DNA of 64,000 nucleotides from a bacterium HR40. GTDB lineage: Bacteria; Pseudomonadota; Alphaproteobacteria; Geminicoccales; Geminicoccaceae. The notes beneath the pieces were generated by a model. The model worked only from the letters and a program-made list of their open reading frames with translations. It did not search any database and had not been told where the DNA came from. Shown piece after piece: positions 50,723-62,548 of this stretch. The stretch is taken from the NCBI GenBank assembly GCA_002898275.1, contig BEIQ01000001.1, positions 923,899 to 987,898 of the forward strand. Direction: 5' to 3'. A program made the translations under genes and the position numbers. Positions within the stretch are counted from its first letter, which is position 1; each line of letters begins with the position of its first letter.

Positions 50723-50934
50723 GGGAGACTCCTGCCCTCTGCCTCCTCGCCAACATATCGGGCATCGTGCCCGCACGCCAACGGGCCGAGACTGCCAGCC
50801 CCTGCGCAGGCTGCGACGTCGCCGGCGATTGACCCGATTTGCGAGACAGCCTAGCTAGCCGGTGGGCTGCCGGTCCGGGCGCGAGCCGGACGGCGGCCGG
50901 ATCCCGCAAACTCGAGCGACGGGCTCTGGCATCC

Positions 50935-53277
50935 GTGAGCGAACGCCCCGAAGCCATCGGTTCCTGGCCCTATTTCCGCCGCGATCCGGAATGCGTGGTG
51001 CTGCCTCCGCGCCCGGGCGTGCGGCCGAGCGACAAGCCGCCGGTGCGGATCTTCCTCGGCACCGAGGACGCCCAATACCGGGCCGAGCGCATCTTCTTTT
51101 GGTCGATCGAGAAGGTGCGCGATCCCTCCCGGGTCTATGAGATTTATCTGATGAAGAACATCGCCGGCTTCAACCGGCGTGGCTGGCGTACCGGATTCAC
51201 CAACTACCGCTTCGCCATTCCGGACTTCGCCGGTCGCCGAGGCCGCGCCATCTACAACGACGTCGACCAGATCTACCTCGCCGATCCGGCACTGCTCTTC
51301 GACCTCGATATGGGCGGCCACGGCTATCTCACGATCGATCCGCGCGACACCTCGGTCATGCTCATCGACTGCGAGAAGATGTGGCCGTACTGGAACCGCG
51401 AGACGGCCGCGCGCAGCAGCAAGACGGAGCTCGTCCAGAAGCCGGCTGCGGTGCCCGGGCTCTGCGGATTGCTCGATCCGCATTGGAATGCCCGCGACCT
51501 CGAATATGTCGAGGGCCGCACCAAATGCCTGCACTATACGGCTTTGCACCAGCAGCCGTGGCAGCCATTCCCGGGCGATTATTCCTACCACCCGAACCCC
51601 CTCGCCTATATCTGGTACGAGCTCGAGCGCGAGGCGGACGCGGCAGGCTACCAAGTGTTCACCCGGCAGCGACCGAGCCCTGGCTTCGCCGTCACGCTGT
51701 CGCGCCGCGACCTTTCGCTCTCTCCTCTGCCCTCCGGTCTGCCGGGAGTCCGGGCGCTGGCGCTCGCCAACCAGCTGAAGATCGCGAGCCAGCTCGTGGT
51801 GACGGCCGGCGGCGAGGCACCGGAGCTCGGGCTTGCCGCTGATGTCACCGCGCGCCTCGACCTCACCGCCGATCCCGCGGGGTGGCCGGACAGCCGGTTC
51901 GATGCGGTGGTCGCAGGGTCGCTCTTCGAGCGGGTGCCGCCTTCCGACATCGCCTGGTTGCTCGACGAGCTCTTCGCTCGGGCGCGCCGTCTCGTCGTGC
52001 TGGCGATCGCCGCGACGGCTCGCTACGGCCTCGGCAGTCCCGAATGGTGGCACCGGCGAGTGGCCGAGGCGGCGGGGCGCCGTCCGGGTGTGAGCTGGCA
52101 CCTCGATACCTTTCCGGCGACGACCGAGGCTCCGGCGCGCATCTCCTTCTCCGCCCTGCGGCGCGAGGATCCGGGCCAACCCAAGGTGTGGGCGCTGCTC
52201 GGCGACAATGCGGTCGGCAACGCCCAGGTGCGGCGTCTGGTCGAGGCACTGGGGTGGCCCTACGAAGAGCGGAGACTCGCTTTCAACGCGCGCGCCGCTT
52301 TGCCGCCGTTGCTGCTCGGGGCGAGCCTGGCTGGAGTCGATGTCGCCCGTTCGAGCCCGCTCGCGCCACCCTGGCCCGACCTCGTGATCGCGGCCGAGTC
52401 GAAGAGCGTTCCGGTCGCCCTGTGGATCCGTCGGCAGTCGCAGGGACACACCCGCCTCGTTCAGCTCGGCCGACCGCTCGCCCCCTTCCATCTCTTCGAT
52501 CTCATCGTCGCCGGGCCGCAGCACCGCCTGCCCATCCGCGACAATGTCTTGCACGTGACCGCACCCTTCGCCGGCATGGATGCAGCGACGCTCGCTCGCG
52601 CCACCGCCGCCTGGCGGCCGCGAATCTCCAACCTGCCGCAGCCGCGCACGGCACTCTTCGTCGGCGGTGGTGGTTGGCTTCGGCGGGTTGCGGTCGGCAA
52701 GGCTGCCGAGCTCGCCCGAACCGTTTCCCGGCGCGTGGCTGCGGAAGCGGGCTCGGTGCTGGTGGCCTTTGCTCCGGACGTGCCGGCGCGGGCGCGCGAG
52801 GCCCTTCTCGCGGCCCTGGATGTGCCGCACCTGGTGGCGGATCCTGGCCGCGAGCGCGAGGCGCAGGCGGCCTTCCTCGCCCTCGCCGACGGGTTCGTCG
52901 TCACCGACGACGATCCGGCGCTTCTCGCCGAGGCCTGCCTGACCGGCAAGCCCGTCGCTCTGTTCGGGCGCTCCCACCGCGAGCCGAGCCGGCTCCTCGA
53001 CCCGCTGTGGAAACTCGGGGCCATGGTCCTGGGCCTTACCTATCGGGGTACGCCGCACCAACAGACCTGGCTCGGGCGGCTCGCTGACGAGCTCGCGACC
53101 CGCGGGCTGCTCGTCCTGCCGCGCGACCTCGAAGCCTATCACGATGCGCTCGAGGCGCGCGGGCTGCTGGTGCGGATCGGCTCCGAACCACGGGCACGAC
53201 CGCGGCCGCTGGACGATTTGGCACGGACCGTGGAGCGCGTGCACAGCCTCATGAGCGAGGTGCCGCAGGCAGGCTGA
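50935..53277 (+). CDS. fusion of GT8-like glycosyltransferase, methyltransferase-like and ELM1 domains
   Basis: A 780-residue cytosolic protein in three parts. Residues 30-260 resemble a GT8-type nucleotide-sugar glycosyltransferase, with YNDVDQIYLADPALLFDLD as the DxD-like site and a late HYTALHQQPWQPFPGDYSYHP. Residues 275-405 look like a class I methyltransferase fold without the glycine-rich SAM loop (FDAVVAGSLFERVPPSDI). Residues 415-770 are an ELM1 (mitochondrial fission protein-like) domain with VWALLGDNAVGNAQV, AAESKSVPVALWIRRQ and FVVTDDDPALLAEACLTGKPVALF. Bacterial ELM1 proteins are viewed as putative glycosyltransferases. The GTG at 50935 is preferred over a TTG 96 bases upstream. 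Confidence 0.75.
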   Translation: MSERPEAIGSWPYFRRDPECVVLPPRPGVRPSDKPPVRIFLGTEDAQYRAERIFFWSIEKVRDPSRVYEIYLMKNIAGFNRRGWRTGFTNYRFAIPDFAGRRGRAIYNDVDQIYLADPALLFDLDMGGHGYLTIDPRDTSVMLIDCEKMWPYWNRETAARSSKTELVQKPAAVPGLCGLLDPHWNARDLEYVEGRTKCLHYTALHQQPWQPFPGDYSYHPNPLAYIWYELEREADAAGYQVFTRQRPSPGFAVTLSRRDLSLSPLPSGLPGVRALALANQLKIASQLVVTAGGEAPELGLAADVTARLDLTADPAGWPDSRFDAVVAGSLFERVPPSDIAWLLDELFARARRLVVLAIAATARYGLGSPEWWHRRVAEAAGRRPGVSWHLDTFPATTEAPARISFSALRREDPGQPKVWALLGDNAVGNAQVRRLVEALGWPYEERRLAFNARAALPPLLLGASLAGVDVARSSPLAPPWPDLVIAAESKSVPVALWIRRQSQGHTRLVQLGRPLAPFHLFDLIVAGPQHRLPIRDNVLHVTAPFAGMDAATLARATAAWRPRISNLPQPRTALFVGGGGWLRRVAVGKAAELARTVSRRVAAEAGSVLVAFAPDVPARAREALLAALDVPHLVADPGREREAQAAFLALADGFVVTDDDPALLAEACLTGKPVALFGRSHREPSRLLDPLWKLGAMVLGLTYRGTPHQQTWLGRLADELATRGLLVLPRDLEAYHDALEARGLLVRIGSEPRARPRPLDDLARTVERVHSLMSEVPQAG

Positions 53278-53332: not shown

Positions 53333-54109
53333 ATGCGACTGGTGTGGGGTCCGTGGGATCCGGAACCGCGCCTGCTGAACCGGATGGGGTTCCGCGATCT
53401 GTTGCGCGCCTATTTCACCTACTACGCCATCCAGGTCTATCTCCTCTGCGTCGTCGCTGGAGGTCTTCTCGCAGCGCGGTGGGCCGAAAGCTGGGAAGGG
53501 CCAGCGTTGGCCGCGCTCGTCACCGTCCTCGTCTACCCGTTCGTCGAGTATCTCGTGCACCGTTTCGTGCTGCACTCGCGGTGGCTCTATCGCAGTCGTT
53601 TCACGGCCCGAGTGTGGAAGCGCATCCACTACGATCATCATCGGAACCCGAACGATCTCGGAGTTCTCTTCGGCGCCCTGTACACGACCCTGCCGACCAT
53701 CGCACTCGTCACCCTGCCGCTGGGCGGTCTCATCGGCGGTGCCGCCGGGGCCGCCGCGGCTTTCGCCGCTGGCTCTGCCGTCTTCGCCTTTTACGAGTTC
53801 TGCCATTGCGTGCAGCACCTCCCGGTGAGCCCGAAAAACCGCTGGCTCCGCGATATCAAGCGGCGTCACTTGGCCCACCACTTTCACAACGAGCAAGGGA
53901 ACTTCGGCATCACGAGCAGCCTCGTCGACCGCCTCGTCGGCACCTTCTACGATCCGCCTCACACGCGACCCAAGAGCCCGACCGTCTTCAATCTCGGCTA
54001 TACCGGTCCGGAGCGAGAACGCTATCCCTGGGTCGCGCAGTCCTCGGCCGAGGAGCGCACGAGCGCTCGCGCGCGTCGGCGACGTGCGGAGACGTTGGGT
54101 CGGACGTGA
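53333..54109 (+). CDS. fatty acid hydroxylase/sterol desaturase family membrane protein
   Basis: Di-iron membrane oxygenase acting on a lipid chain or sterol-like substrate. The 258-residue protein has four or five hydrophobic segments. The histidine boxes are HRFVLH (about residue 78), HYDHH, HCVQH and HLAHHFHNEQGNFG, the eight-histidine pattern of the family. It opens an eight-gene run of overlapping genes. The stop overlaps the GTG of the GNAT-like gene. Candidate reactions are acyl-chain or long-chain-base hydroxylation; sterol use is unlikely without other sterol genes. Confidence 0.87.
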   Translation: MRLVWGPWDPEPRLLNRMGFRDLLRAYFTYYAIQVYLLCVVAGGLLAARWAESWEGPALAALVTVLVYPFVEYLVHRFVLHSRWLYRSRFTARVWKRIHYDHHRNPNDLGVLFGALYTTLPTIALVTLPLGGLIGGAAGAAAAFAAGSAVFAFYEFCHCVQHLPVSPKNRWLRDIKRRHLAHHFHNEQGNFGITSSLVDRLVGTFYDPPHTRPKSPTVFNLGYTGPERERYPWVAQSSAEERTSARARRRRAETLGRT

Positions 54110-55245
54110 GCGACATCCGCATTGCTGCGGTCGAGAGCCGCGAGGATCTCGTCCGCTTTCTCGAGCTGCCGGCGTCGATCTACGCCAGCGACCGCAACTG
54201 GGTGCGGCCACTGCTGTTCGAGCGGCTGCGGCACCTCGACCGGAACCGCAACCCTTTCTGGCGCGGCATCGACATTCGCTTCTGGATCGCCCGCCGCGGG
54301 GCGCGCGAGGTGGGACGCATCAGTGCCCAGGTCAACCACCGCCATCTGGAGCGGCACGCCGACGCGACGGGCCATTTCGGCTTCCTCGAGGCGGTGGACG
54401 ACCCGGAGGTGTTCGCGGCCCTGTTGGAAACGGCAGAAGAGTGGTTGCGCGCCCAGGGAATGGAGCGCATCGCCGGCCCCTTCGATCCGTCGATCAACGA
54501 CTCCTGCGGGCTCCTGGTCGCCGGTTTCGAGCGACCTCCCAGTATGATGATGGGCCATGCCCGACCCTATTATGCCCAGCGGCTCGAGGCTCTCGGCTAC
54601 CGTAAGCTGCGCGATCTCCTCGCCTATGACTTCGACGTCACCGCCGACTGGCCGCCGGCGGCGGCTCGCTTGCTGGCTCGTGCCCGGCGACTCGAGGGCG
54701 TGCGGGTGCGTCCCCTCGACATGCGGCGCTGGTACGAGGAGATCGACACCATCTGCGCGATCTTCAACGACGCCTGGGCGGAGAATTGGGGCTTCGTGCC
54801 TTTCGACCAAGCGGAAGCGCGCTATCTCGCAGACGAGATCCGGCCCCTCGTGACCGGCGGTTGCTTCGCGATCGGCGAGCTCGACGGAGAGCCCGCAGCC
54901 ATGACGGTGACTCTGCCCAATCTCAACGAGGCCATCGCCGATCTCGGCGGTCGGCTTTGGCCATTGGGCTGGGCGAAGCTCCTATGGCGGCTGTTCGTGC
55001 GCGGCGTCTCGAGCTGGCGCATGCCCCTCATGGGGGTACGGCGCCGTTACCAGAACAGCCCGCACGGGGCGGCCCTGGCGCTGCTCGTCATCGAGGCCGT
55101 CCAGTCGTACCACCGGGCTCGCGGCGTGGCACGCGCCGAGCTCTCCTGGGTGCTCGAGGACAACCGACGGGTGCGCGATCTCATCGAGACCGTGGGCGGA
55201 GTGCCCTACAAGACCTACCGCATCTACGCGAAATCCTTGCGATGA
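54106..55245 (+). CDS. GNAT-fold acyltransferase-like protein (bacterial ceramide synthase-like)
   Basis: A 379-residue two-lobe GNAT protein. The first lobe has WVRPLLFERLRHLDRNRNPFW, VGRISAQVNHRHLERH and RIAGPFDPSINDSCGLLVAGF with PSMMMGHARPYY. The second lobe has NDAWAENWGFVPFDQAEARYLADEI, then MPLMGVRRRYQNSPHGAALALLVI and AELSWVLEDNRRVRDLIETVGG. This sequence type is often misnamed dATP pyrophosphohydrolase. As I recall, it is the family to which the Caulobacter acyl-CoA dependent ceramide synthase belongs. Acyl transfer to an amine is therefore likely, but the substrate is inferred. Confidence 0.72.
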   Translation: MSDIRIAAVESREDLVRFLELPASIYASDRNWVRPLLFERLRHLDRNRNPFWRGIDIRFWIARRGAREVGRISAQVNHRHLERHADATGHFGFLEAVDDPEVFAALLETAEEWLRAQGMERIAGPFDPSINDSCGLLVAGFERPPSMMMGHARPYYAQRLEALGYRKLRDLLAYDFDVTADWPPAAARLLARARRLEGVRVRPLDMRRWYEEIDTICAIFNDAWAENWGFVPFDQAEARYLADEIRPLVTGGCFAIGELDGEPAAMTVTLPNLNEAIADLGGRLWPLGWAKLLWRLFVRGVSSWRMPLMGVRRRYQNSPHGAALALLVIEAVQSYHRARGVARAELSWVLEDNRRVRDLIETVGGVPYKTYRIYAKSLR

Positions 55246-56045
55246 CTCCGATCCCTGCCCTCGTCCTGGCTGGAAGCCGTCTCGGGGAACACGATCCCGT
55301 CGCCCGCATCGCCGGTGTGGCCCACAAGGTGCTCGCTCCGGTGGCAGGCGAGGCCATGGTCTCGCGGGTGCTGGGCGCGCTCGAGGCCTGCCCGCGGATC
55401 GCCGGGATCGTGCTGGTCTCGGATATCGGCGACGAACTGCGCCGGCTGCCGCGGGTGCAACGCATGGAGCGTTCCGGACGGCTGCAACTGCGCGAGGCTG
55501 CCTCGAGCCCGTCGCTGTCGGTGGCGCAGGTGTTCGCCGAGTTCGGTGCGCCGCTGCTCGTCACCACGGGCGACCATGCACTGCTCGACCCCCCTATCCT
55601 GGCGGAGTTCCTCGCCGGCGCCGAGCGTGGCGGGAGCGATCTCGCCGTGGGCCTCGTCGAGGAGCGGGTGATCGCCGCGCGCGTGCCCTCGACCCGACGC
55701 ACCTATCTCCGCTTCCGCGACACCGCCGTCTCGGGCGCCAATCTGTTCCTCCTGCGCACGCCTGCTGCTGCCGCCGCACTCGGCTTCTGGCGGCGGGTCG
55801 AGGCCGAACGCAAACGCCCGTGGAAGCTCGCTGCGGCCTTCGGGCCACGGCTGCTCCTGGGCTTCTTGCTGCACGGGCTGACCCTCGAGCGGGCCTTCGT
55901 CCTCGCCGGCCGGCGCTTGGGTCTCGCCGTGGCGCCGGTGCTGCTGTCGGCAGCCGTTGCCGCGATCGACGTGGACCGACCCGAGGATCTGCAGCTCGTC
56001 CGCCAGCTCGCGGCAGCCCGTGCGCAGGCGGAGCCCGTAGCGTGA
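55242..56045 (+). CDS. NTP transferase domain protein (MobA-like)
   Basis: Nucleotidyltransferase of the GT-A or MobA-like fold, 267 residues. The N-terminal signature ALVLAGSRLGEHDPVARIAGVAHKVLAPVAGEAMV contains the LAG and late-Lys pattern used to bind NTP. VTTGDHALLDPPILAEFL carries the metal-binding Asp. A late SGANLFLLRT and AIDVDRPEDLQLVRQ complete the fold. It probably activates a sugar, sugar phosphate or polyol phosphate as an NDP derivative for the lipid made by the neighbouring genes. It overlaps its neighbours by four bases on both sides. Confidence 0.8.
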   Translation: MTPIPALVLAGSRLGEHDPVARIAGVAHKVLAPVAGEAMVSRVLGALEACPRIAGIVLVSDIGDELRRLPRVQRMERSGRLQLREAASSPSLSVAQVFAEFGAPLLVTTGDHALLDPPILAEFLAGAERGGSDLAVGLVEERVIAARVPSTRRTYLRFRDTAVSGANLFLLRTPAAAAALGFWRRVEAERKRPWKLAAAFGPRLLLGFLLHGLTLERAFVLAGRRLGLAVAPVLLSAAVAAIDVDRPEDLQLVRQLAAARAQAEPVA

Positions 56046-56959
56046 GACTGGCGCATCTGAGCGACCCCCACCTCGCCCCCCTTCCCTGCCCCCGAGCGCG
56101 CGACCTCCTGGGCAAGCGAGCGAGTGGCTTTCTGTCGTGGCAGCTGCGGCGCCGCTTCCGCCATCGTCCCGAAGTGCTAGAAGCGGTCGTCGCCGATCTG
56201 CGCGCGTTTGCACCCGATCACATCGTGGTCACAGGCGATCTCGCCAATCTCTCGCTGCCCGAGGAATTCGTCCGGGCGGCACGCTGGCTCGCCGGGCTCG
56301 GCTCGCCCGAACGCGTGAGCCTGGTGCCTGGCAACCACGACGCCTATGTCCGCCTGGCGCCCGAACAGAGCGCCGCCCAGTGGACGCCCTGGATCACGGA
56401 CGATGACGGGCGGTCCGGTTTTCCCTGGCTGCGACGGCGTCCGCCTTTGGCGCTCATCGGCCTTTCGAGCGCCGTGCCTTCCGCATGGTTCCGAGCGACC
56501 GGCTCGGTAGGGGAGACGCAGCTCGAGGCCCTCGAACGGATGCTCGCCGACCTCGGCGACGAGGATCTCATCCGCGTGCTGCTCGTGCACCATCCGCCGC
56601 TCGAGAGGGTGCCGCGGCGCAAGGCCCTGCTCGATCGCGAGGCGCTTTTGCGGGTCATCGCCCGGCACGGGGTCGAGCTCGTGCTCGCCGGCCACCTCCA
56701 TCGCTTCGCCGTGGAGTGGCTTTTCGGACCGCGGCAGCCGGTGCCCCTGCTCCTCGCCCCCTCGGCCTCCCTCCTCTCCTCCGCCGAAGGCTGTGGCGGC
56801 TATGTGCGGCTGGTCGTCGAGGGAACCCGCCGACAGCCCCGGATCGAGGTGGAGCTGCGCCGTTTCGACCCTGGATCGGGCCGGGTGACGGGCACCGGAC
56901 GTTTCTCGCTTTCGGCCGCGGCCGCCGGCCGCGCAGAGGCTGAGATGGCCCTGCCGTGA
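56042..56959 (+). CDS. metallophosphoesterase
   Basis: Calcineurin-like phosphoesterase of 305 residues. The five blocks are present: LSDPHLA (DxH), VVTGDLANLS (GDxxN), VPGNHDAY (GNHD/E), LLVHHPPL and AGHLHRFAVEW (GHxH). There is no signal peptide, so it works in the cytosol. It starts at a GTG overlapping the NTP transferase gene and its stop overlaps lptF. In the operon it could remove a phosphate from a lipid or head-group intermediate, as LpxH does in lipid A synthesis, though it is not close enough to call LpxH. Confidence 0.88.
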   Translation: MRLAHLSDPHLAPLPCPRARDLLGKRASGFLSWQLRRRFRHRPEVLEAVVADLRAFAPDHIVVTGDLANLSLPEEFVRAARWLAGLGSPERVSLVPGNHDAYVRLAPEQSAAQWTPWITDDDGRSGFPWLRRRPPLALIGLSSAVPSAWFRATGSVGETQLEALERMLADLGDEDLIRVLLVHHPPLERVPRRKALLDREALLRVIARHGVELVLAGHLHRFAVEWLFGPRQPVPLLLAPSASLLSSAEGCGGYVRLVVEGTRRQPRIEVELRRFDPGSGRVTGTGRFSLSAAAAGRAEAEMALP

Positions 56960-58164
56960 GGGTGCTGTCCCGCTATCTCACCAGCCAGACGCTGCATCCG
57001 ATGGCGGCGACCCTGCTCGTCGCGCTCCTCGCATTGCTCGCCGAACGGGCGCTGCGGGTCGTCAATATGGTGATCGGCTGGCGCGGCAGCCTGTTCGCCA
57101 TCGTCGAGATGCTGAGCTACCTCGTCCCTCACTACATGGGCCTGGCGCTGCCGGCGGCCCTCTTCCTCGGCATTTTCCTGGCGATGGCGCGGATGGCGCG
57201 GGAAGGTGAGGTGGACGCCATGCAGGCGGGCGGAGCGGGCCTCTGGACCTGTACCCGGCCGCTCTTTTTCAGCGCACTCGGCGTCGCCGCCGTCCACCTG
57301 CTCCTCGTGGGCTATATCCAACCCTACAGCCGCTATGCCTACCGCGCCGCGGTGTTCGCGCTCACCAATGTCTCCTTCCAGACCCTGCTCGAACCCGGCG
57401 TGTTCGCGACCCTCGGTCACACCACCTACCGGGTGCGCACCCTCGACCCGCGCAAGGAGCAGTTCGAAGACCTCTTCCTTTTCTCCGAGCTCGAGTCCGG
57501 CGATTCGGTGGTGCTCACCGCCCGTCGCGGCCGCATCGAGATCGAGGGCGCGGCACGTCCCATCCTCTTGCGCCTCGAGGATGGAGTACAGCAGATCGTG
57601 CCCGGGGAGCTTTCCTTGCGCGGGGTGGAGCGTCTGCCGCGCTCCCTCACCCTGCGCTTTCGCAACTTCACCACCGACCTGCGCGGCGCCGAGCCCATCG
57701 GGTTTCGGCCGCGGGGCGAGGACGAGCGTGAACTCACCCTCGGCGAGCTGTGGATGTTGCGCGACCGCCCCCCACCCCACATCGATGCCGCCGAGATCCG
57801 CGCCGAACTCGACGGGCGGCTCGCCCGCAGCCTGTCGATCCCGGTCCTGCCCTTCCTCGCCGTGCCGCTCGCTCTGGGCCGTCGTCGCGGCCGGCGATCC
57901 TATGGGTTCGTGATCGGGGTGCTGGTCCTCGTCGCCTACCACCAACTGCTGCAGACGGGTGAAGGGCTCGCCGACAACGGCGTCCTCGACACCGGGACCG
58001 CGCTTTGGCTGCCCACCGGCTCGTTCGGCCTGCTGTCGCTGCTCCTCTTCCTGCGCCGCGCCACGACCGTGCCCGATCCCGCCCGCGGCGCGGTTCTCGA
58101 TCGCTTCGCGGAAGCCGTCCAAGATCGTCTCGCCCGCTTGCTGCAAGAACGGATCGCCGACTGA
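56956..58164 (+). CDS. lptF: LptF-type permease (YjgP/YjgQ family)
   Basis: One half of the inner-membrane LptFG transporter that lifts lipopolysaccharide from the membrane for the periplasmic bridge. The 402-residue protein has six predicted membrane helices in two sets of three, with MLSYLVPHYMGLALPAALFLGIFLAMARMAREGEVDAMQAGG in the coupling-helix region. The periplasmic beta-jellyroll spans about residues 130-275, before the second helical set. It starts at a GTG overlapping the phosphoesterase gene. The location inside a lipid-enzyme operon is unusual: lptF and lptG normally sit near pepA or lptD. Confidence 0.87.
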   Translation: MRVLSRYLTSQTLHPMAATLLVALLALLAERALRVVNMVIGWRGSLFAIVEMLSYLVPHYMGLALPAALFLGIFLAMARMAREGEVDAMQAGGAGLWTCTRPLFFSALGVAAVHLLLVGYIQPYSRYAYRAAVFALTNVSFQTLLEPGVFATLGHTTYRVRTLDPRKEQFEDLFLFSELESGDSVVLTARRGRIEIEGAARPILLRLEDGVQQIVPGELSLRGVERLPRSLTLRFRNFTTDLRGAEPIGFRPRGEDERELTLGELWMLRDRPPPHIDAAEIRAELDGRLARSLSIPVLPFLAVPLALGRRRGRRSYGFVIGVLVLVAYHQLLQTGEGLADNGVLDTGTALWLPTGSFGLLSLLLFLRRATTVPDPARGAVLDRFAEAVQDRLARLLQERIAD

Positions 58165-59279
58165 TGGGCGTGCTCTCCCGCTATCTCTTGCGTTTCGTGC
58201 TGACGCGCTTGGCAGCGGTGCTGTTCGCCATTGTCTGCTTCGCTTTCCTCATCGACCTCCTGGATGCGAGCGAGGATCTGCTTGGCCGTTCCGATTCGCC
58301 AGTGCGCGATTTGCTCGTCTATACCGGTCTGCGTACGCCCTCCCTGCTCAGCGAGATCCTGCCCTTTGCCCTCCTCCTCGGTGGACTGTTCGCGGCGACC
58401 GACCTGATCCGACACCGCGAGCTCGTGGCCATCTGGAACGCTGGCCTGTCCTCGGCCGGCATCGCGCTCAGGCTCTTGCCGCTCGCTTTGCTGCTGGCAG
58501 TGGGCAAATATGGGAACGACGATCGTCTGATCCCGGCGAGTGTCGAGCGGCTGCGCGACTGGGGTGTCGGCCTCTTCTCCTCTCTCGGACCCGGACGCGA
58601 CGACCGTTGGTTGTGGGTGGCTGCCGACGACACGGTCCTGCGCTTTCACGCGCGAGCGGCGCGCGAGGGGAAGTTGCGCGAGATCGCCATCTTCCGCCGC
58701 AACGCCGAGGGGCTTTTGGTCGAGCGCATCCTCGCCGCCGAGGCGGAGGTACGGGAGGACGGGCTGCTGCTGCACCAGGTCGACCGCCGCCCGCTCGGTC
58801 AGGAGCGGAGCGAGAACATGGAGAGCCTGCTCGTTCCGGTGCACATCGACCTCGAGGCGGTGGCACTGATGACCCGACCGGCGAGCGAGCTGTCGCGAGC
58901 CGATCTCCTGCGCGTGGTGGCAGCGCGGGGCTTCGGCATGCAGCCGATCCACGCCCATCGCACCTGGCTCTACCACCGTCCGGCTGCAGCGCTCGCCGTC
59001 GCTCTGTTGCTCCTTTTGCCCTTCGCTCTCGCCCGCTCGGTACGACGGGTCGGGGGAACCACCGCCCTCTTCCTGCGCGCGCTCGCCTTGGGCTTCGGCT
59101 ACCAGATCGGCAACGGCTTGCTCGTGGCCCTCGGCGAGGGTGGCTTTCTTGCCCCGACCATCGCCGCCTGGGGCGCTCCTTCGCTGCTCGCGCTGACCGT
59201 GCTCGGGCTGTTGCTGCTGGGCGAAGTCGAAGGCCGACGGGCATCGGCAATGCCGGCGGAGGCCGCCCGATGCGCATGA
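58164..59279 (+). CDS. lptG: LptG-type permease (YjgP/YjgQ family)
   Basis: Partner of LptF, 371 residues. It has SRYLLRFVLTRLAAVLFAIVCFAFLIDLLDASEDL in helix 1, then TPSLLSEILPFALLLGGLFAATDLIRHRELVAIWNAGLS, the coupling region typical of the family. The periplasmic jellyroll spans about residues 110-255, followed by three C-terminal helices with LYHRPAAALAVALLLLLPFALA. The ATG shares one base with the lptF stop. Whether this pair serves lipopolysaccharide or another lipid made by this operon cannot be told from sequence; I see no LPS biosynthesis gene nearby. Confidence 0.87.
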   Translation: MGVLSRYLLRFVLTRLAAVLFAIVCFAFLIDLLDASEDLLGRSDSPVRDLLVYTGLRTPSLLSEILPFALLLGGLFAATDLIRHRELVAIWNAGLSSAGIALRLLPLALLLAVGKYGNDDRLIPASVERLRDWGVGLFSSLGPGRDDRWLWVAADDTVLRFHARAAREGKLREIAIFRRNAEGLLVERILAAEAEVREDGLLLHQVDRRPLGQERSENMESLLVPVHIDLEAVALMTRPASELSRADLLRVVAARGFGMQPIHAHRTWLYHRPAAALAVALLLLLPFALARSVRRVGGTTALFLRALALGFGYQIGNGLLVALGEGGFLAPTIAAWGAPSLLALTVLGLLLLGEVEGRRASAMPAEAARCA

Positions 59280-60229
59280 GCCTCGTCCACAATCCGCAAA
59301 GCGGCCGCAATCACCGCGACCCCCTCGATCCCGAGCGGCTGGCCCGGGATGTCCCCACTCTCGACCTCCATCTCCTCGGGCCAGACACCGACACCGCCGC
59401 GCTCGCCTGCCGCCTGCTCGACCGCCATCCGGACCTCCTCGTGGTGAGCGGAGGCGATGGCACGCTGCAGCGGCTGCTCACCGCTCTTCTGCAGGCAGCC
59501 GATGGCGCCCCTCTTCCCGCCGTGGCGATCCTGCCACGCGGTACCGCCAACATGATCGCGGCCGATCTCGGCCTCGTGCGCCGGCCGCCGCGCGCCACCA
59601 CCGTCGCCCGCCTGCTGCGCGATCTCGACGAAGGCCGCCGCGCCACCATCATGGAGGAACGGGCGGTGGTCGCGATCCAAACCGGCGATGCGCCGCCCGA
59701 GGCCGGCTTTTTCTTCGCGACGGGCGCGGTGTGCGATGCCATCGACTTCTGGGCCGAGCGGTTCCAGCGTCGGGGATTGGTCGGGGGGGTCTCCCAGCTC
59801 CTCACCTTCCTCGCGCTGCTCGCCGGGATCGCCACCAAGGGGCCGGAAGCCGCCGGTCTCAGACCCTTTACCGGCAAGCTCGAGATCGACGGGCATCCAC
59901 CGCTCGCCGGCTCCTTCCTGTTCGCGTTCGCCACGACTCTCGACCGACTGCTGCTCGGCGCCACTCCTTTCTGGAATGGCGACGGGGCCGCGCTGCGGGT
60001 CACGGCGGTGGAACGCGATGCCCCGCACTTGCTCGCCCATGCCTGGCGGGTCGTGCGCGGCAAGATGCGCAAACCGCCGCCCCGATACCATAGTTTTGGC
60101 GCCGGACGGGTACGGCTGCGGGGAGCCGAGCGCTTCGTCGTCGACGGCGAGTTCCGCGTCGTCGCCCCTGGAGCGGAGATCGTAGTGGCTGCTGGCCGGA
60201 GGCTGCGCTTTGTCCGGTTCGTCGACTGA
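59270..60229 (+). CDS. diacylglycerol/sphingosine kinase family lipid kinase (LCB5-type)
   Basis: ATP-dependent kinase of a lipid hydroxyl group, 319 residues. The N-terminal nucleotide-binding lobe begins SLVHNPQSGRN and contains VVSGGDGTLQRLL (about residues 57-69) and AILPRGTANMIAADLG, both signatures of the DAGK catalytic domain. The C-terminal beta-sandwich lobe ends RGAERFVVDGEFRVVAPG. GGAGG precedes the ATG, which overlaps lptG by ten bases. The family phosphorylates diacylglycerol, long-chain bases or ceramide; the bacterial ceramide kinase activity in Caulobacter is an example. Substrate here is unknown. Confidence 0.87.
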   Translation: MRMSLVHNPQSGRNHRDPLDPERLARDVPTLDLHLLGPDTDTAALACRLLDRHPDLLVVSGGDGTLQRLLTALLQAADGAPLPAVAILPRGTANMIAADLGLVRRPPRATTVARLLRDLDEGRRATIMEERAVVAIQTGDAPPEAGFFFATGAVCDAIDFWAERFQRRGLVGGVSQLLTFLALLAGIATKGPEAAGLRPFTGKLEIDGHPPLAGSFLFAFATTLDRLLLGATPFWNGDGAALRVTAVERDAPHLLAHAWRVVRGKMRKPPPRYHSFGAGRVRLRGAERFVVDGEFRVVAPGAEIVVAAGRRLRFVRFVD

Positions 60230-60236
60230 AGCGGGG

Positions 60237-61118
60237 GTGCGGGCCGAACTTGCCCGCATGTTGCGCGACGAACTCGCGGCACCAGTGCCGGAACCGGTCC
60301 GGATCGCCGCCGAGATGGCGCGGGCGCGCCACGGCGAGGGCATCGTCGCGGTGCTGTTCTATGGCAGCTGTCGCCGCGACGGCTGGAGCCCGAGGAGCCT
60401 CATCGACCTCTATCTGCTCGCCGAGACGTACGCGGCCGTGCATCGAGGCTGGCTCACCCGCCTCGCCAACCGCCTCGTCCCCCCCAACGTCTATCATCTG
60501 TCGGCCCCTTCGCCCTCCGGCCTCGTGCAGGCGAAATACGCCATCGTCTCCCTCGCCCAGTTCGTGAACCGCATGCGGCCGCAGGTGCGCAACCCCTATT
60601 TCTGGGCGCGCTTTGCCCAGCCGGTCGGGCTCGTGTGGGCGCGCGACGCCGACGTGCGGGAGACGATCGTCGCGGCCTGTCTGCTCGCCATCGAGACCGC
60701 TTGGGCGACGGCCCGGACCCTGTTCCCCGAAGCGGACACCCCGGAGGAGCTGTGGCCCGCTCTGTTCGCCGCCACTTACGCCACCGAGCTCCGCAGCGAG
60801 AAGCCCGAGCGGGCGCGCGAGATCTACCTCCATGACCGCGCCCGCTACGATCGCATCGGCGAGCTGCTGCGGCGGCTCGAACCGCTGCCGGTTCCGCGCA
60901 GCGGCCGCAGGCGACGGGAGCTCGAGGGCAAGATCCTCTCGCTCCTGCGCCTCGCCAAAGCCGCCTTCACCTTCGACGGCGGAAGCGACTATCTGGCATG
61001 GAAGATCGAACGGCACTCCGGGGTCCGCGTCGAGCTCGGCCCCTTCTTGCGCCGCCATCCGCTCCTCGCTGCCGCCGTCCTCGGCCTGCGACTTTACCGC
61101 CAGCGCGCCTTCCGCTGA
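60237..61118 (+). CDS. Tam41-like nucleotidyltransferase (putative CTP:phospholipid cytidylyltransferase)
   Basis: A 293-residue protein resembling the Tam41/Mmp37 family, whose mitochondrial member makes CDP-diacylglycerol from phosphatidic acid and CTP. The nucleotidyltransferase motif is VAVLFYGSCRRDGWSPRSLIDLYLL (YGS near residue 42, late Asp). It is followed by NRLVPPNVYHLSAP and KYAIVSLAQFVNRM, similar in order to the yeast protein. Starting at TTG 60210 would overlap the kinase gene; the GTG at 60237 is preferred. Coming right after a lipid kinase, it could convert the phosphorylated lipid into a CDP-activated one. Confidence 0.6.
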   Translation: MRAELARMLRDELAAPVPEPVRIAAEMARARHGEGIVAVLFYGSCRRDGWSPRSLIDLYLLAETYAAVHRGWLTRLANRLVPPNVYHLSAPSPSGLVQAKYAIVSLAQFVNRMRPQVRNPYFWARFAQPVGLVWARDADVRETIVAACLLAIETAWATARTLFPEADTPEELWPALFAATYATELRSEKPERAREIYLHDRARYDRIGELLRRLEPLPVPRSGRRRRELEGKILSLLRLAKAAFTFDGGSDYLAWKIERHSGVRVELGPFLRRHPLLAAAVLGLRLYRQRAFR

Positions 61119-61128
61119 CCAGCGGTCC

Positions 61129-61785
61129 CTAGCCGGCGCTGCGCTGCTTCTTGAGCCGCTCCTCCATGGTCGCGAGGAGCCCCTCGATCCCCTTCTGGCC
61201 GACGATCTCGGCCACTTCCGACCGCTGGGTGACGAGCATGCTCACCCCTTCCGCCACCACGTCGATCACCAGCAATCGCCCGTCGTGATCGCGCAGCCGC
61301 CAGTCCACCACATAGGGCGCGCCGCCGTTGGGCCGCTGCACCAATGTGCGGACGATGGTGTCGCGGTCGTCCACCTTTTGCACGTCCGTGACATCGAAGC
61401 TCTCGCCGCTGTAGCGATCCAGCCGCTCGGCAATCGCCCGCCGCAGCAATGCCCGAAAGAGCTCGAGATAGCGTTTCTGCTGGTCCGGTGTCGCCTGCCG
61501 CCAGTAGCGCCCCATCACCAAGCGCGCGATGAGATCGAGGTCGGTCGCCTCCTCGAGGAGGTCCTCGAGAGCGCCGATCTTCGCTTCGCGGTCGAGGTCG
61601 GTGCGTCGCAACACGGCGAGCGCGCGATCGCGCAGGTCGAGCACGAAAGCCTTGGGATCGGAAGCGGCGGCACCCGCCGGCAGGGCCCACAGCGCGACCC
61701 ATCCCAAGCCCGCTGCAGCCAAAAGACGGCGACGCGCCCAACGCCGGACCGACTCATCGATTGGCGGGGTCTTCGAAGGACTCAT
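61129..61785 (-). CDS. mlaC: MlaC/Ttg2D family phospholipid-binding protein
   Basis: Periplasmic shuttle that carries phospholipids between the outer-membrane MlaA complex and the inner-membrane MCE transporter. The 218-residue precursor has an N-terminal signal (WARRRLLAAAGLGWVALWALPAGAAA). The mature part has FVLDLRDRALAVLRRTDLDREAKIGALEDLL, DLIARLVMGRYWRQATPDQQKRYLELF and YSGESFDVTDVQ, with VDWRLRDHDGRLLVIDVVAEGVSMLVTQRSE at the end. The ATG lies inside the mlaA stop region (32-base overlap), so it is the second gene of a leftward pair. MlaF, MlaE and MlaD are not in the window. Confidence 0.9.
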   Translation of the reverse strand: MSPSKTPPIDESVRRWARRRLLAAAGLGWVALWALPAGAAASDPKAFVLDLRDRALAVLRRTDLDREAKIGALEDLLEEATDLDLIARLVMGRYWRQATPDQQKRYLELFRALLRRAIAERLDRYSGESFDVTDVQKVDDRDTIVRTLVQRPNGGAPYVVDWRLRDHDGRLLVIDVVAEGVSMLVTQRSEVAEIVGQKGIEGLLATMEERLKKQRSAG

Positions 61786-62548
61786 CAGGCGTCTCCCGGT
61801 AGACCGAGTCATCGAACGGGGCCGGCGCACCGTTGCGAATCTCAGCCCGTCGCCGCTGCAAATAGCTCGAACGCACGGCGGCGTAGAAATCGAGGCTCGA
61901 GCGTTCGAGATCGTCGAGCAGCGGATCGAGCTCGTAGCGGGTGACCACCGCCTCCGTCGCCAAGCGCGCGAGCTGGGCCTCGCCCGATAACGCCAACCCC
62001 GCAGGATCGAGCAGCACCGTGTCGACCGCACTGCCGACGAAGTCGCGCACCGTCGAAGGCCCGAGGAGAGGCAGCACCAAATAGACGCCCTCGCCCGCGC
62101 CCCACACCGCTAGAGTCTGCCCGAAGTCCTCGTCTTGCTCGAGGTAGCCGAGCTCGGCGGCGAAGTCGAACAGGCCGAAGAGCCCGAGGGTCGAGTTGAT
62201 CATGAACCGGCCGAGGGTGATCCCGGCACGCTCCCGCTCCCCCTGGAGGAGCGCGTTCACGAACACGACCGGCGCCGCGAGATGGTCGAGCAGGTTCCTC
62301 ACCATCCTCCGCACCGGCCGCGGCACCACGAGGCCATAGACTTCGGCCGCGGGCTCGAGGACCAGTCCATCGACCACCCGATTGACGGCGAACACGGCCC
62401 GGTTCACGGGTTCGAGGGGATCGTGGACGTCGCCGCGGGCTGTGGCACAGCCCGCGAGCAAACAGACCCCGAGCGGCACCAGCCGCGCCGCGCTGAAAAG
62501 CCGAGTCGTCTGCCAGCGACCCGCAAAAGCCGAAAGCGAGCTGATCAC
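61754..62548 (-). CDS. mlaA: MlaA/VacJ family outer-membrane lipoprotein
   Basis: Ring-shaped outer-membrane lipoprotein that extracts phospholipids from the outer leaflet. The 264-residue precursor has a lipobox signal (LVPLGVCLLAGC). The mature part has HDPLEPVNRAVFAVNRVVDGLVLEPAAEVYG, VRNLLDHLAAPVVFVNALLQGE, RFMINSTLGLFGLFDFAAELG, FGQTLAVWGAGEGVYLVLPLLGPSTVRD and a YELDPLLDDLERSSLDFY tail, all family signatures. The GTG start is chosen for a GGGA eight bases upstream and a compact signal. It is translated leftward ahead of mlaC. Confidence 0.94.
   Translation of the reverse strand: MISSLSAFAGRWQTTRLFSAARLVPLGVCLLAGCATARGDVHDPLEPVNRAVFAVNRVVDGLVLEPAAEVYGLVVPRPVRRMVRNLLDHLAAPVVFVNALLQGERERAGITLGRFMINSTLGLFGLFDFAAELGYLEQDEDFGQTLAVWGAGEGVYLVLPLLGPSTVRDFVGSAVDTVLLDPAGLALSGEAQLARLATEAVVTRYELDPLLDDLERSSLDFYAAVRSSYLQRRRAEIRNGAPAPFDDSVYRETPDESFEDPANR

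Follow-up and report, generated by a model that had tools for sequence, protein, structure and literature searches.

The stretch analyzed here (hereafter the window; 64,000 nucleotides of contig BEIQ01000001.1 of the bacterium HR40, family Geminicoccaceae) carries an operon of eight + strand genes (positions 53333–61118) that appears devoted to the synthesis and export of a ceramide-based lipid (Table 1). The genes share one orientation, and successive overlaps down to the kinase gene measure 4, 4, 4, 4, 1, and 10 bases; the coordinates thus bear out a preliminary description of eight same-strand genes with overlaps of 1–10 bases. If the Tam41-like gene starts at the GTG codon, 7 bases separate it from the kinase gene; if it starts at the TTG codon, the two genes overlap by 20 bases. 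A ninth gene on the + strand, coding for a GT8/ELM1 protein, stops 55 bases before the hydroxylase gene and travels with the operon in 11 of the relatives examined, and is probably its first gene. The order of the operon genes is kept in most of the Geminicoccaceae neighborhoods retrieved; their proximity is therefore not a matter of chance, and this explanation was discarded. Promoter and terminator scans gave a signal no higher than chance.

Table 1. Genes of the operon, with the upstream GT8/ELM1 gene; positions refer to the window.
Predicted product	Position	Strand	Basis or remark
GT8-like N-terminal region with C-terminal ELM1 (GT-B fold), putative glycosyltransferase	50839..53277	+	Start codon uncertain
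Fatty-acid hydroxylase, Scs7-like; ceramide acyl hydroxylation predicted	53333..54109	+	PF04116, E 1.8e-21; conserved histidines
GNAT-fold bacterial ceramide synthase, CerS, CC_1154 counterpart	54106..55245	+	Identity; co-occurrence with serine palmitoyltransferase
MobA/CofC-like nucleotidyltransferase, CC_1153 counterpart	55242..56045	+	PF12804 (NTP_transf_3), E 2.6e-7
Calcineurin-like phosphoesterase, CC_1158 counterpart	56042..56959	+	PF00149 (Metallophos), E 1.6e-14; metal-ligand motifs conserved
LptF, sphingolipid-cluster type, CC_1156 LptF2 counterpart	56956..58164	+	PF03739 (LptF_LptG), E 8.3e-58; tree
LptG, sphingolipid-cluster type, CC_1155 LptG2 counterpart	58164..59279	+	PF03739 (LptF_LptG), E 2.1e-48; tree
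Ceramide kinase-like lipid kinase, CC_1160 CpgB counterpart	59270..60229	+	DAGK_cat, E 5.1e-15; GGDG motif
Tam41-fold predicted CTP-dependent nucleotidyltransferase, CC_1161 CpgC counterpart	60237 (GTG) or 60210 (TTG)..61118	+	Fold; identity

Gene for gene, the operon corresponds to most of the phosphosphingolipid cluster of Caulobacter crescentus (CC_1168–CC_1152; PMC11324152), from which a ceramide kinase has been described (PMC10331486). Counterparts of CC_1154, 1153, 1158, 1156, 1155, 1160, and 1161 lie in the operon, those of CC_1165–1162 elsewhere in the genome. When compared with the syntenic genes of a Caulobacter sp. that has the gene order published for C. crescentus (PMC11324152), identity amounted to 46% for the GNAT protein, 45% for the NTP transferase, 42% for the phosphoesterase, 32% for LptF, 27% for LptG, 33% for the kinase, and 38% for the Tam41-like protein; the GNAT protein is in addition 51% identical to the product of an A. 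vinelandii gene in the CC_1154 position. The Caulobacter counterparts of the GNAT and kinase proteins are ceramide synthase and ceramide kinase, and the matches support the earlier proposal of a line that assembles and exports a lipid akin to the sphingolipids of Caulobacter. The organization differs in that the Caulobacter cluster comprises four operons and two cistrons, whereas here one compact operon is found, with the Scs7-like hydroxylase and the GT8/ELM1 gene in addition; acyl hydroxylation in Caulobacter is the task of a DesA-family protein whose gene lies elsewhere (PMC11324152). Judged by gene content and homology, the operon belongs, in compact form, with the cluster known from Caulobacter, a type already published, and in itself it is not new.

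A serine palmitoyltransferase (SPT) and an NAD-epimerase-family ceramide reductase (CerR), which the preliminary description had proposed to look for in the rest of the genome, were both found about 80 kb beyond the window, together with genes for an acyl carrier protein and an acyl ligase. They form an aasR-cerR-acpR-spt cluster (G000:C1, about 1,066–1,070 kb) in the order of CC_1165–CC_1162, and the SPT matches a solved bacterial SPT with an E-value of 1.4e-123. SPT stands directly beside the operon, in convergent orientation, in about half of the Geminicoccaceae neighborhoods, and it is also found beside operon genes in Pelagibius and other metagenome-assembled genomes of the Rhodospirillales type. 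Among 31 genomes of the family, which share kinship and do not amount to 31 independent trials, CerS and SPT were both present in 25 and both missing from the other 6; of the genomes with CerS, 25/25 have SPT. A sphingolipid pathway in the window's genome is well supported at the gene level; a sulfonolipid or another long-chain amine as the product was considered and rejected in view of the clear SPT, CerR, and Caulobacter-type CerS. As a side observation, CerS-like GNAT genes accompanied by SPT or other cluster genes were also seen at L178, L193, L194, L215, L216, L219, and L230, on contigs that bear the labels Desulfobulbaceae, Geobacter(aceae), or Nitrospirales/Nitrospirae; L230 and L193 have two CC_1159-like genes.

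Pfam and NCBIfam yielded nothing decisive for either the GNAT protein (a marginal Pfam match, GNAT, E 0.05) or the Tam41-like protein (no Pfam match), and neither gave a match in a sequence search of solved structures. Since sequence searches were uninformative, the identity of the Tam41-like protein was settled only by folding. Its AlphaFold model (pLDDT 87.6) aligned with 7ecd, the complex of Tam41 with cytidine triphosphate (CTP), at Z 18.1 and with 6ig4 at Z 14.3, the next best structure reaching 7.8, and the original Tam41-like call holds on this ground. The fold is common to the mitochondrial CDP-diacylglycerol synthase Tam41 (6ig2, 6ig4) and its bacterial relative (7ecd), whereas identity to Tam41 is about 15–17% and the predicted substrate is ceramide-1-phosphate instead of phosphatidate. 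A hint at CDP-diacylglycerol synthase has been published for CC_1161, with which the modeled fold agrees; the enzyme is predicted to form CDP-ceramide. As to the two genes that the Caulobacter cluster does not have, the hydroxylase resembles yeast Scs7 (4zr0, E 2.1e-11), and the GT8/ELM1 protein matched ELM1 in its C-terminal part (Pfam, E 6.8e-42) and Glyco_transf_8 in its N-terminal part with E-values of 0.013–0.08, below the cut-off; GT-B folds aligned over model residues 409–777 at Z about 14–18. This protein is a fusion in which a GT8-like region with an invariant DVDQ motif, a middle segment, and an ELM1 domain of the GT-B type are joined. Directly after the operon, homologues of mlaC and mlaA (phospholipid transport) lie in convergent orientation on the - strand (61129–62530).

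The lptFG genes of the operon are the only pair in the window's genome. The preliminary description had spoken of a dedicated LptFG, but the check for a second lptF/lptG pair found none, and this part of it did not hold. With the exception of G004, which has two pairs, each genome with CerS has a single pair, located within the operon or beside it to the extent that the contigs let this be judged. In the LptF tree, the operon copy groups with LptF of alphaproteobacterial sphingolipid clusters (support 100/99), and the LptG tree agrees (96/92). In both trees, the operon copies and the second G004 pair are separate from the lptD-linked copies of relatives that make lipopolysaccharide (LPS), and monophyly of all family copies of LptF/LptG was rejected (approximately unbiased test, p 0.0008 and 3e-65). 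Cluster copies from gammaproteobacteria and Desulfobulbaceae are placed elsewhere in the trees, and the operon-type LptFG is therefore an alphaproteobacterial group, there being no single universal type. The canonical pair occurs in seven genomes (six LPS-only ones and G004), where lptF, lptG, and lptD stand in a row and, on contigs that extend far enough, pepA lies upstream in divergent orientation. Eighteen genomes, the window's among them, have pepA and lptD as immediate divergent neighbors with no room for lptFG (a distance of 134 bp in the window's genome). LptD itself is retained in 31/31 genomes, and the window's genome has one (E 1.8e-42). The pepA/lptD site is empty in G003 although its relative G004 retains the canonical pair, so that at least two deletions of lptFG are likely. 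LptC (PF06835), a further Lpt component, was recognized only in the six LPS-only genomes and in G003, and is divergent or absent elsewhere.

Lipid A synthesis shows a matching pattern of loss. The window's genome (2.89 Mb, a draft of 8 contigs scored 100% complete) yielded no LpxA, LpxB, or LpxC, with LpxD, LpxK, and KdtA outside the search, and the same searches do find genes in relatives. LpxA, LpxB, and LpxC are present in the 6 family genomes with neither CerS nor SPT, G004 and G006 combine these lpx genes with CerS/SPT, and LpxA and LpxB are missing from 23 of the 31 genomes, all 23 with CerS and SPT; on the LptD tree, three changes of LPS state are needed. In six CerS genomes, lpxC persists although lpxA and lpxB are missing, and where its surroundings were inspected it occupies the customary site next to ftsZ. 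In five of the six, residues are replaced (E. coli numbering) at K239, D242, and D246 (G012, G020, G025), at H79, H238, D242, and D246 (G008), or at D246 and H265 (G007), whereas LpxC of the sixth, G017, is largely intact, with the zinc-binding and main catalytic residues kept; LpxC of the LPS-making relatives is intact, including the motifs in G009 and G018. From their sequences, the five degenerate orphans (L157, L158, L159, L160, L254) look like decaying genes, apparent fossils of lipid A synthesis.

We consider it quite probable that the product of the operon is a ceramide-based lipid, both phosphorylated and hydroxylated, which is exported via the Lpt bridge, and that this route has replaced LPS in this genome. 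SPT, AcpR, AasR, and CerR, encoded 80 kb away, would together with the GNAT CerS provide ceramide, whose acyl chain the Scs7-like enzyme would hydroxylate; the kinase would then form ceramide-1-phosphate, which the Tam41-fold enzyme would activate with CTP; the nucleotidyltransferase and the phosphoesterase would complete the head group, to which the upstream GT8/ELM1 protein might add a sugar; and the sphingolipid-type LptFG would extract the lipid and hand it to the single retained LptD. Hydroxylation, acylation, phosphorylation, CTP activation, and head group addition had been proposed from the start. The genes present, their homology and synteny, the fold of the Tam41-like protein, the placement in the trees, and the pattern of losses are established, while each enzymatic step, the order of the enzymes, the head group, the cargo, and the role of LptD stay at the level of prediction. 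The objections that had been anticipated find an answer in the genome, as the GNAT and kinase proteins match the Caulobacter genes, long-chain-base genes are present, and the lptFG pair, although the sole one, is found in a genome without lpxA, lpxB, and lpxC. Reassignment of the Lpt line from LPS to phosphoceramide is our best reading.

Some observations weigh against it. A search confined to the window and further Geminicoccaceae stretches found no counterpart of CC_1159 (CpgA) or of CC_1152 (CpgD, which is a phosphoglycerate cytidylyltransferase; PMC12275187), while both occur in other clusters of the 80 named loci. Formation of ceramide phosphoglycerate (CPG) involves CC_1160 and CC_1161, of which the operon has counterparts. 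As CC_1159 and CC_1152, needed for CPG2, are missing near the operon, the product may differ from CPG/CPG2; CpgA and CpgD counterparts could also be encoded elsewhere in the genome. Furthermore, Pfam did not detect LptC in the window's genome, and the search for lipid A genes extended to three families. Finally, two genomes of genus g7, G006 with its lpxA, lpxB, and lpxC and G017 with its largely intact lpxC, have no canonical lptFG at pepA/lptD, from which it follows that the sphingolipid-type LptFG may also carry LPS. The loci behind these genomes are L255, L257, L258, and L118 (G006) and L161 and L127 (G017).

For the family as a whole, we moderately favor a course in which the Lpt bridge was handed from LPS to a phosphosphingolipid: the sphingolipid-type LptFG would have taken over LptD, canonical lptFG would have been deleted from its site on two or more occasions, and repeated loss of lipid A synthesis would have followed, with living intermediates in the form of LptFG possibly serving both lipids and of decaying lpxC. 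That G006 and G017 retain lpx genes next to an empty lptFG site suggests that loss of lptFG preceded loss of LPS. The same two genomes, in which only sphingolipid-type LptFG was found, and the degenerate lpxC of nearby genera lend some weight to a variant according to which this LptFG carries both LPS and sphingolipid, the canonical pair having been lost first and LPS having decayed later, repeatedly. We regard this variant, which is compatible with sphingolipid export in the window's genome, as possible yet the less likely course, since G006 and G017 are drafts of 86–87% completeness and G004 retains both LptFG pairs alongside LPS.

It is also conceivable, though unlikely, that the operon makes a sphingolipid while the main cargo of LptFG and LptD is something else, for instance a glycolipid built by the GT8/ELM1 protein, lptFG being neighbors by operon convenience. 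The cargo in our preferred reading is itself deduced from the genes, an ELM1/GT8 gene heads the operon, and our control genomes include LptF/LptG homologues in bacteria outside the LPS makers. However, lptFG genes are found with CerS/SPT clusters across Alphaproteobacteria and in other groups as well, the sphingolipid-type LptFG forms one group across the alphaproteobacterial clusters, and C. crescentus mutants in CC_1156 (LptF2) show a cofitness of 0.60 with CC_1159 (PMC11324152). That LPS genes are present but were missed through an assembly gap or divergence, LptFG serving ordinary LPS, is very improbable: the 8-contig draft and a search that did not extend to LpxD, LpxK, and KdtA leave some room for it, but the genome is scored complete, the three Lpx families searched are all absent from it and were found in relatives, LpxA and LpxB are gone from most of the family, the orphan LpxC are degenerate, and canonical lptFG has vanished from its place. 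An ordinary LPS exporter was accordingly rejected, as a search for lpxA, lpxB, and lpxC found none of them.

The proposed phosphosphingolipid export via the Lpt bridge can be set against known systems. With the canonical LPS exporter (LptB2FG-C-A-DE), the window's genome has LptF, LptG, and a full-length LptD in common, but its LptFG is of the sphingolipid-cluster type, LptC is undetected, and canonical lptFG as well as lpxA, lpxB, and lpxC are missing. In Caulobacter, LptF2 and LptG2 are second versions beside the LPS ones, whereas here they are the only ones. Sphingomonas, cited among the LPS-less sphingolipid bacteria (PMC11324152), likewise has sphingolipid genes without LPS genes; it belongs to a different order, and Geminicoccaceae display deletion of canonical lptFG in place and decaying lpxC among close relatives. 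The route of bacterial sphingolipids to the outer membrane has been stated to be unknown (PMC11324152), and we found no published lipidomics for an lpx-less member of the group, a search for papers on LPS or sphingolipids of Geminicoccaceae yielding only polar-lipid lists for Geminicoccus (PMC9659566). What the analysis adds to the published cluster is a replacement of the LPS branch on the scale of the family, in which a sphingolipid seems to have become the cargo of the Lpt exporter. Loss of LPS genes and canonical lptFG, with lptD and the lptFG of the sphingolipid operon kept, represents a natural experiment that points to the Lpt bridge as this route. Since genomes with LPS only, with both lipids, and with sphingolipid only exist among close relatives, the question is open to direct test; it also concerns the means by which a Gram-negative cell can do without LPS.

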